From contig NZ_FOXQ01000009.1 in assembly GCF_900115755.1 (NCBI RefSeq), positions 124,001 through 188,000 of the forward strand: a DNA stretch of 64,000 bases. The letters are read 5' to 3'. Position 1 is the stretch's first letter. Every line of letters begins with the position of its first letter. Under the pieces are notes generated by a model. It worked only from the letters and a program-made list of their open reading frames with translations. It was not told where the DNA came from and did not search any database. Source of the DNA: Parafilimonas terrae. GTDB taxonomy: Bacteria; Bacteroidota; Bacteroidia; Chitinophagales; Chitinophagaceae. A program made the position numbers and the translations under genes. This document shows positions 11,090 through 15,831 of this stretch, piece by piece.

Positions 11090-11133
11090 TGATGGGAATA
11101 GGGAATTAGTAATTGGGATAAAGGCTGGTTCTT

Positions 11134-11245
11134 TTGAATATTGATTATTGAGCGTTGGTTATTGATTATTTGAACCACTCAATGTTCAATACAAAACAAT
11201 CATGTTCATTTAGCTGATGAAATAATTGAGCATTGATTATTTATT
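11134..11245. repeat. dispersed ATTGATTATTGA-type palindromic repeat
   Basis: Repeated short units (ATTGATTATTGAG, TTATTGATTATTTGAAC, CAATGTTCAATAC, TTGAGCATTGATTATT) occur in both orientations. The same units recur at 15079-15216, 35875-35945 and 63215-63355, always between genes. Confidence 0.6.
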
Positions 11246-11255
11246 CAAAAAATAT

Positions 11256-11286
11256 TTTGGCGTATTTGTTTAACACATTACTTTCG
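11256..11286 (+). promoter_or_regulatory. candidate Bacteroidota promoter for the asd leader
   Basis: TTTG at 11256-11259 is followed after 19 bases by TACTTTCG at 11279-11286. This fits the phylum's TTTG-N19-TAnnTTTG pattern with one mismatch. It would start a transcript a few bases before the leader ORF at 11296. Confidence 0.45.
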
Positions 11287-11295
11287 CGCAGCAAA

Positions 11296-11358
11296 ATGCA
11301 AATGATTAAGAAACATACAAAGTGCATAAAGACATTCTTTAAAAAGGAAGGTGCATGA
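11296..11358 (+). CDS. candidate leader peptide of an asd attenuator
   Basis: A 20-codon ORF (MQMIKKHTKCIKTFFKKEGA) opens just downstream of the promoter-like motif. Six Lys, two Thr, two Ile and two Met make up 12 of 20 residues; all four amino acids derive from aspartate semialdehyde, the product of the downstream gene. The end of the ORF overlaps GGAAGG (11346-11351), which can pair with the 5' arm of the following terminator. Ribosome stalling at the early Lys codons would leave that segment free to form an antiterminator, and completed translation would mask it. This architecture is seen directly; the regulatory role is inferred. Confidence 0.5.
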   Translation: MQMIKKHTKCIKTFFKKEGA

Positions 11359-11386
11359 TGTTGTATGCTTAATGAAGATAAAACAG

Positions 11387-11417
11387 AAAGCCTTCCAAAA
11401 AAACGGAAGGCTTTTTT
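11387..11417 (+). terminator. Rho-independent terminator, probable attenuator of asd
   Basis: A 10-bp perfect stem (AAAGCCTTCC with GGAAGGCTTT), an eight-base A-rich loop and a terminal T run lie 179 bases ahead of asd. The 5' arm has an alternative partner, GGAAGG at 11346-11351. Confidence 0.8.
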
Positions 11418-11595
11418 AATGCCTTGCATAATAAAGTCAGAGGCTTTGCGCATAAACCTGTGAAGTGCGGAGACTTTGCAGAGCGAAATGTTTTTCAGTG
11501 CTGAACAGAATTATTACAGCTTCAGTGTGCGACGCAACAGAAGCCGGATAGATATTCAAAAGCTTAATTCATAAAAATAAAAAAACCATCACAAA

Positions 11596-12588
11596 ATGAA
11601 AGTTGCAGTAGTTGGCGCAACCGGCCTGGTTGGCTCAAAAATGTTACAGGTATTAGCGGAAAGAAATTTTCCTGTAACGGAGTTATTTCCCGTAGCAAGT
11701 GAACGTTCTATCGGTAAGGAAGTTGAGTTTAAGGGAAAGAAATACAAGGTTATTTCTTATGAAGATGCTATTGCCGCCAAACCAAACGTGGCTATATTTT
11801 CTGCGGGTGGCAGCACCTCGCTTGAACTGGCGCCTAAGTTTGCAGCAGCCGGCATTACTGTAATTGATAACTCCAGTGCGTGGCGTATGGACCCATCAAA
11901 AAAATTAGTTGTGCCCGAGCTGAATGCAGATGCATTAACTGCTGAAGATAAAATTATTGCCAATCCTAACTGTTCTACCATTCAGATGGTAGTGGCATTA
12001 AACCCGCTGCATAAAAAATATGGCATTAAGAGAATTGTTGTAAGCACTTATCAAAGTGTAACAGGTACAGGTAAGAAAGCCGTTGACCAGTTGTATAATG
12101 AACGTAAAAATGTAGCTGACGGCCCCATGGCATATAAATATCCTATTGACTTAAATGTTATTCCGCAGATAGATGTATTTCTTGATAACGGCTACACCAA
12201 AGAAGAAATGAAAATGGTGAACGAAACAAGAAAGATTATGCGTGATGATAATATTATGGTTACGGCTACCACCGTGCGCATACCCGTTGTTGGCGGCCAC
12301 AGTGAAAGTGTTAACGTTGAATTTAATAGCGATTTCGATATTGAAGAAGTAAAGAAAATATTGAGTGAGGCGCCGGGTGTTGTGGTGCAGGATGACCTGT
12401 CTGCGCAGGTTTACCCTATGCCTTTATGGGCGCATGAAAAAGACGAAGTGTTTGTAGGAAGGATAAGAAGGGATGATACGCAACCAAACACTTTAAACCT
12501 TTGGATTGTGAGCGATAACCTGCGTAAAGGTGCTGCTACCAATGCAGTGCAGATTGCAGAATACCTGTCGGGCAAAGGATTGTTATAG
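11596..12588 (+). CDS. asd: aspartate-semialdehyde dehydrogenase
   Basis: 330 residues. The N-terminal NADP-binding motif is GATGLVGSKM (residues 7-16). The catalytic Cys is Cys126 in NPNCSTIQ. The substrate-binding region contains YQSVTGTGKKA, and the C-terminal catalytic His lies in VPVVGGHSES-like RIPVVGGHSESV. The enzyme reduces aspartyl phosphate to aspartate semialdehyde, the branch point to lysine/diaminopimelate, threonine, isoleucine and methionine. The ATG at 11596 fits the family N-terminus exactly. It is a single gene with a long (about 300-base) leader carrying the candidate attenuator described above. Confidence 0.97.
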   Translation: MKVAVVGATGLVGSKMLQVLAERNFPVTELFPVASERSIGKEVEFKGKKYKVISYEDAIAAKPNVAIFSAGGSTSLELAPKFAAAGITVIDNSSAWRMDPSKKLVVPELNADALTAEDKIIANPNCSTIQMVVALNPLHKKYGIKRIVVSTYQSVTGTGKKAVDQLYNERKNVADGPMAYKYPIDLNVIPQIDVFLDNGYTKEEMKMVNETRKIMRDDNIMVTATTVRIPVVGGHSESVNVEFNSDFDIEEVKKILSEAPGVVVQDDLSAQVYPMPLWAHEKDEVFVGRIRRDDTQPNTLNLWIVSDNLRKGAATNAVQIAEYLSGKGLL

Positions 12589-15216: not shown

Positions 15217-15370
15217 TGAAGAATCAATATTCAAAGGTGCGCTTGCCAAAGCATATTTATATCCGGCATCTTCTTTACCTTCCTAAAAAGAAAACCAATA
15301 TTTTGTTTTCAACAAAAGGTGCATAACAATTCCCGGCATTTTTATTTTGGGTTATTACTTTACATGCATG

Positions 15371-15550
15371 TTTTGGTTAACACCGCAATTAACGCGGGCA
15401 CGTTATTAAAAGGGAATTTCGTGTAAATCGAAAACTATCCCGTAGCTGTAAGCTCTGTGAAAATTGTTTATATTAAATGCCACTGTAAATTATAACGGGA
15501 AGGTTATAAACAATGGAGCAAGTCAGAAGACCTGCCAAAACATCCATAAG
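15371..15550 (+). promoter_or_regulatory. cobalamin (B12) riboswitch
   Basis: The B12 aptamer landmarks occur in order: AAGGGAA (15410-15416), GTGTAAATCG, ACTATCCCGTAGCTGTAAG (15434-15452), GCCACTGTAAAT (15479-15490), ACGGGAAGG (15494-15502), and the near-perfect B12 box AGTCAGAAGACCTGCC (15521-15536). It is 280 bases upstream of nrdB, so coenzyme B12 would modulate synthesis of the class I ribonucleotide reductase. The expression platform is not obvious; a GGCCTTCGG-containing stem follows. The rest of the gap (15551-15831) shows only AT-rich sequence. Confidence 0.92.
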
Positions 15551-15831
15551 CAATCAGGCCTTCGGAGGAAAGGCAGGATCTGGTTTTACAAACACGGCGC
15601 ATCAGCCGCAGCGCATTGTATGCCCAGCTTCTTTTCTCTCCGTGGCAAACTATAAATAAGATTTATAAAGATTGCTTGCACCAGCGAAAATTTGAAAGCT
15701 TAGGTTTTATATACATCAATATATAAAAATATATAAAAGGTTTTTATTTTCTGCATTTATAAATACATTTTCTTCTGTTTATAACGGCATTAGCTGTTAC
15801 AGATAGAAGTTTCGCTTTAAAATAAATTATT

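Follow-up and report, generated by a model that had tools for sequence, protein, structure and literature searches.

The leader upstream of the aspartate-semialdehyde dehydrogenase gene (asd) in the window, i.e. the whole stretch of 64,000 nucleotides that was analysed, is very probably a classical ribosome-mediated transcription attenuator whose main signal would be charged lysyl-tRNA. Sequence comparison supports its short open reading frame (ORF), the alternative pairings, the linkage to the gene and the codon spacing, and we infer the transcription start site, the ribosome stall and the effect on termination. In the proposed mechanism, the transcript would begin a few bases 5' of the leader ATG, with the ribosome trailing RNA polymerase. 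When lysine is plentiful, the ribosome would reach the stop codon and cover GGAAGG, CCTTCC would join its downstream partner, and the resulting terminator would switch asd off. When lysyl-tRNA is short, the ribosome would stall within KKHTKCIK and open the hairpin (1:2) that had enclosed GGAAGG; the freed GGAAGG would then capture CCTTCC before the 3' arm of the terminator is made, allowing read-through into asd.

Layout of the asd leader

The elements of the locus and the evidence for each are as follows.

11256-11286, + strand: putative Bacteroidota-type promoter, TTTG-N19-TACTTTCG (read directly; TAnnTTyG in relatives, see below)
11296-11358, + strand: leader ORF, 20 codons plus TGA, MQMIKKHTKCIKTFFKKEGA, with an alternative start at 11302 (read directly; codon conservation among relatives)
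11308-11331, + strand: presumed control codons KKHTKCIK, with Lys at 11308, 11311, 11320 and 11329 (positions relative to the arm; position profile)
11314-11367, + strand: hairpin 1:2 enclosing GGAAGG, CATACAA (11314-11320) pairing with TTGTATG (11361-11367) and the inner GTGCAT (11322-11327) with GTGCAT (11351-11356) (fold; co-change on an alignment fitted to hairpin 1:2)
11346-11352, + strand: antiterminator arm GGAAGGT, at the end of the leader ORF (co-change and fold)
11385-11417, + strand: intrinsic terminator, 5' arm AGAAAGCCTTCC (11385-11396) and 3' arm GGAAGGCTTTTT (11405-11416) (read directly, fold, co-change)
11596-12588, + strand: asd, aspartate-semialdehyde dehydrogenase, 330 aa (NCBIfam asd_B above cut-off, Pfam)

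Direct reading of the coordinates confirmed the promoter-like sequence, 20-codon ORF and terminator that the original prediction had placed before asd. The leader ORF runs from an ATG at 11296-11298 to a TGA at 11356-11358 and contains six Lys, two Thr, two Ile and two Met among its 20 codons, both Met being possible start codons. The two pairing segments are GGAAGG at 11346-11351 and CCTTCC at 11391-11396. The T tract of the terminator consists of six T (11412-11417), and 178 nt separate the terminator from asd. A consensus terminator scan gave this hairpin on the minus strand only, and direct reading found it on both strands. The gene located 5' of the leader encodes an M13-family peptidase; the DNA between this gene and the promoter is A/T-rich (11130-11250) and carries repeated words similar to TTGAGC..TTGATTATT.

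In the promoter, TTTG (11256-11259) and TACTTTCG (11279-11286) are separated by a spacer of 19 nt. Within the window, the promoter match alone is no more than chance, as the pattern occurs twice against 1.25 matches expected and was found at least twice in 38 of 100 shuffles. Among relatives, 82 of 85 leaders carried TAnnTTyG 5' of the HTK/TK codons, compared with 6.6% of base-shuffled copies. In 59 of the 82, a gap of 7-9 nt separated the end of the box from the first ATG, and 74 of the 82 had a TTG 19 or 20 nt further upstream. Transcription start sites in Bacteroidota generally lie a few bases after a box of the TAnnTTyG type. If this spacing applies here, the leader mRNA would begin almost at the leader ATG.

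Lysine codons and the amino acid probably sensed

The codon pattern was analysed in a set of 85 leaders, from which L075, L098 and two further hits, identical or unusable, were left out. The leader ORF looks translated. The motif HTK occurs in 60 of the 85 leaders, and in the block K-H-T-K-x-x-K-K of these 60 leaders Lys occupies positions 0, 3, 6 and 7 in 59, 60, 57 and 49 cases respectively, with AAA and AAG exchanged at the conserved Lys positions. The sixth residue of the block (position 5) is Thr or Ile in 48 of the 60, and four Thr codons and two Ile codons are used. A wider count of 92 leaders, 81 before asd and 11 before dapA, took in seven leaders added by hand, one of them a locus from an earlier DNA search. 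At least three Lys were present in every one of the 92, and at least four in 75 of the 81 asd leaders and 10 of the 11 dapA leaders.

The Lys codons of the window leader start at -38, -35, -26 and -17 from the antiterminator arm, with two more at -5 and -2 from GGAAGG. These last two lie, in our model, where a stalled ribosome would cover the arm; since they would leave it covered, only the first four count as control codons. The same spacing is apparent across the set: Lys supplies 71% of codons in the bin from -18 to -13 relative to the arm, and its share in the three bins that follow is 12%, 10% and 8%. The lysines thus sit where a stall would free the arm.

Lysine is likely to be the main signal at the asd leader. 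The original prediction had proposed joint control by several end products of the pathway: Lys is the residue common to all 92 leaders, Thr and Ile are suggested by a single residue, and Met finds no support, each of the two Met being either a start codon or adjacent to one. The residue in question immediately precedes the KK pair and is Thr or Ile in 65 of 73 asd leaders and in none of nine dapA leaders, which carry Val (six) or Ser (three) (Fisher p 8e-8, uncorrected for relatedness, with 10 leaders outside the pattern). In eight genomes from three genera (G009, G123, G195, G245, G106, G182, G233 and G050), in which both leaders were read and both fitted the pattern, the asd leader has Thr and the dapA leader Val or Ser. 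These data would agree with the same device reading Thr and Ile besides Lys at asd and Lys alone at dapA. We regard this version as possible but doubtful, because Thr and Ile codons are one transition apart and the codon lies in or near the hairpin, where base-pairing may explain the choice. Moreover, besides the leaders outside the pattern, Thr is missing from 4 of 81 asd leaders (and from 2 of 11 dapA leaders), and the dapA leaders come from few genera. The H and T of KHTK may likewise be structural, as both lie in the hairpin arm.

Alternative pairings and ribosome position

The predicted fold of the 127-nt leader RNA consists of two hairpins and reaches -31.1 kcal/mol, compared with -16.6 kcal/mol (sd 2.8) for shuffled copies, none of which was as good (z -5.1; 0 of 200). 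When folded alone, the segment from GGAAGG to CCTTCC formed seven outer pairs at -13.6 kcal/mol, a value equalled by one shuffle in 200. In an alignment that had been fitted to hairpin 1:2 and the terminator, 89.3% of the cells of these two structures were paired; shuffles gave 80.2%.

The pairing between the two arms was then evaluated over the 85 leaders. Each arm paired with the terminator arm of its own leader at a mean of -12.55 kcal/mol, against -11.52 kcal/mol (sd 0.15) when partners were permuted with relatedness kept in, and none of 10,000 permutations did as well. The two arms change together: GGAAAGG occurs with CCTTTCC in three rows of one genus, GGAGAAG or GAGAAG with CCTTCTC in eight rows of three genera (six rows from one), and GGGAGG with CCTCCC in one row. 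By a crude motif count, mismatched rows were CCTTCC with GGAGAAG (one), CCTTCTC with GGGAAG (one) and CCTTCA with GGAAGG (three). For 43 of the 85 rows, the 50 base shuffles included one or more that paired as well as the real arm.

The effect of the ribosome was examined with a blocking model, in which the RNA is made unavailable as far as 12 nt past the A-site codon, the transcript ends before the 3' arm of the terminator and pairing is scored at P > 0.5. With a ribosome on at least one Lys codon, the model paired the arm with the terminator 5' arm in all 85 leaders; with a ribosome at the stop codon, the arm paired in 12 and was covered in 73. Relative to the first base of the antiterminator arm, the stop codon begins anywhere from 5 nt upstream to 16 nt downstream. 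With no ribosome, an equilibrium model of the nascent RNA favoured the antiterminator in 62 of the 85 leaders, and terminator stems alone are mostly lower in energy than the arm duplexes; the switch must therefore depend on the order of folding.

The original prediction had put forward both the attenuator reading and the pairing behind it, GGAAGG (11346-11351) with CCTTCC (11391-11396), which a ribosome at the stop codon would mask; conservation, co-change and geometry bear both out. Among the features by which attenuators are recognized, we found a short leader ORF that appears rich in codons for a pathway product, with synonymous exchange among them, a predicted intrinsic terminator between this ORF and the structural gene, an antiterminator that, by co-change and fold, shares the 5' arm of the terminator, and, in the blocking model, a stop codon that masks the arm together with control codons that free it.

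Occurrence, leaders of other genes and known systems

A first search at the DNA level, covering 39 genomes, placed the element upstream of asd in four of seven other genomes of the window's genus, the three without it being 63-67% complete, and upstream of a dapA gene in another genus. One of its loci, L006, was first matched by its terminator only, and the leader was later scored with a model (L073). Six further matches of this search (L008, L010, L011 and L013-L015) were terminator-only or intergenic look-alikes and were not counted. A covariance model built from five leaders (R1; refined version, R2) matched 152 of 244 genomes of the family Chitinophagaceae, in 71 of 101 genera. Of 91 hits read at 90 loci, 77 lie before asd, 11 before dapA and three before neither (L105, L098 and the second hit in L075). 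R2 was also applied to 80 named asd loci; it found the element upstream in 26, including those titled Limnovirga, Filimonas, Flavihumibacter, Sediminibacterium roseum, Niastella (with Niastella yeongjuensis) and Niabella (with Niabella ginsengisoli), and did not find it in those titled Mucilaginibacter, Pedobacter, Sphingobacterium, Dyadobacter and Spirosoma; three of the 80 (L237, L249 and L254) had little upstream DNA. The comparison of asd upstream regions suggested with the original prediction thus showed that ORF and alternative pairings are kept in relatives.

Wider searches matched 67 of 298 genomes in the order, 62 of them within the family, and 14 of 296 in the phylum, eight within the family. 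The 11 hits outside the family (L122-L127 and L129-L133) were weak and, in a scripted check, none was before asd or dapA; L130 and L132 have leaders of interest, and the others, among them L131 beside a contig end, have no convincing one. Of 19 family genomes, most of them chosen because the model gave no hit, 17 showed no such element upstream of asd; one of the two that carry it, L151, had given no hit. A terminator scan, which may miss weak stems, detected no convincing element in 30 genomes outside the family. One outgroup locus, L188, in which an ORF of 11 codons, three of them Lys, precedes a terminator some 306 nt upstream of asd, was not counted.

The weak R2 hits also include other leaders built on a similar scaffold with similar spacing. 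His-rich leaders precede hisG at four loci (L137, L138, L139 and L199), one of them in the window's own genome (L199, G000:C32:909919-910035, MNYNTHTHHHHFTKAW). The same genome carries an Ile/Val-rich leader before ilvD (L202, G000:C36:140499-140641, MLNRIINNITNNSVIIIVVVIIISVTGGGV); no other convincing leader was seen among its weak hits, of which 13 of 18 were examined. A Phe/Tyr/Trp-rich leader precedes a prephenate dehydratase gene (L145), a Lys-containing leader (MMIYKHKSSKRFLPKW) precedes a lysA-like gene in another family of the order (L130, genome G309), and Lys-rich leaders precede a class I/II aminotransferase gene in G189 (L141) and G115 (L142). The hisG of L199 and the truncated ilvD of L202 score above their NCBIfam cut-offs; the ORFs of L145 and L130, also truncated, fall below theirs and pass Pfam domain cut-offs; the L142 gene has a general aminotransferase domain only and no NCBIfam name at cut-off; and the genes of L137-L139 and L141 were named from the gene start only. 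None of these sister loci matched an Rfam leader family.

The control codons of the sister leaders keep a comparable distance from the arm. In each of the four His leaders the final His lies at -16 or -17; Lys is found at -16 in L141 and L142, and L130 has Lys at -20 and again at -5. In L202 the run of Ile and Val extends to -13 and is followed by another Val at -7, and the aromatic codons of L145 run to -11. In the dapA leader L021, Lys is at -19, with one at +2. That the codons appear to change with the gene is our strongest argument for amino-acid-specific attenuation. A separate locus, L132 (251-407), found in G291 from another family of the order, has a Cys-rich ORF (MKINNYNHSNNNTSFSPCCCTCCCCCVPIREG) and the arms GGGAAGG/CCTTCCC before a gene with nitrite/sulfite reductase domains, and is a candidate cysteine attenuator.

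These comparisons also bear on other explanations of the asd element. Its strong and conserved structure could belong to a small-molecule riboswitch or another aptamer carrying the ORF incidentally, an explanation that is very improbable given the synonymous exchange at conserved Lys codons and the sister leaders whose control codons follow the gene. At gathering score, Rfam identified in the window only a cobalamin riboswitch (15357-15553), a TPP riboswitch (2469-2566) and a tRNA, all away from the leader. The leader itself gave sub-threshold matches only, the best being Phe_leader RF01859 at 25.4 bits against a gathering score of 55, and the Lysine riboswitch RF00168 matched neither the window nor any of 98 family genomes, with 4 of 14 control genomes positive. 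It is equally hard to credit that the peptide itself, through sequence-specific nascent-chain arrest, or leader translation governing Rho, would act in place of codon supply. The strong conservation of the KHTK core would fit an arrest peptide, but HTK is absent from 25 of 85 leaders, the sister leaders share spacing and not peptide sequence, and CATACA, which encodes HT, is a hairpin arm that recurs in some His leaders. Finally, assigning the terminator to the upstream M13 peptidase transcript or to an independent small RNA, with an asd promoter further down, draws on the 178-nt gap in the window and on a consensus promoter scan, not exhaustive for this phylum, that gave only weak sites, and is most unlikely since the element tracks asd and dapA across genomes, L006 and L007 have other upstream ORFs, and the distance from the model end to the ATG (minimum 16 nt) does not exceed 60 nt in 45 of 88 cases, leaving little room for a promoter.

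Lysine-directed attenuation at asd would give a concrete candidate way to sense lysine to a family in which no lysine riboswitch was detected (98 genomes). More broadly, attenuation in this family may use a shared scaffold on which the control codons name the pathway, and the codon-to-arm spacing can serve for finding and reading further leaders. The poorly named aminotransferase behind the Lys leaders of L141 and L142 becomes a candidate for lysine synthesis. As a tentative extension, which we lean against at present, Chitinophagaceae might exert two-tier control, by Lys and Thr/Ile at asd and by Lys at dapA, within a suite of near-leaderless attenuators (Lys, His, Ile/Val, aromatic and perhaps Cys) that exchange codons from gene to gene on one scaffold.

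Classical leader-peptide attenuators are known for the trp, his, thr, leu, ilv and phe operons. The asd leader resembles them in its short ORF with control codons, its protector hairpin, an antiterminator and a terminator sharing one arm, and masking positioned by the stop codon; it differs in having lysine as the likely main signal, asd and dapA as targets and a Bacteroidota promoter close to the leader start. The Lysine riboswitch RF00168 controls lysine-pathway genes in other phyla and, unlike the asd leader, is an aptamer without a leader peptide. In Thermus thermophilus, a lysine leader peptide reportedly attenuates lysine synthesis, in that case by the aminoadipate pathway and with another phylum and other genes involved. 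Within the same phylum as the asd leader, clues to leader-peptide attenuation upstream of amino-acid operons were described for Flavobacterium psychrophilum, together with structured elements before pheA and hisG in Flavobacteriaceae that have no Rfam match; the section of that paper on these elements does not mention asd, dapA or lysine (PMC9723704). Leader-like sORFs are also mentioned in a passage on Bacteroides thetaiotaomicron (PMC7366714). In the open-licence literature searched we found no description of a lysine leader at asd or dapA. Attenuation is thus a known kind of control, and what appears to be new is a lysine-type leader spread through much of one family.
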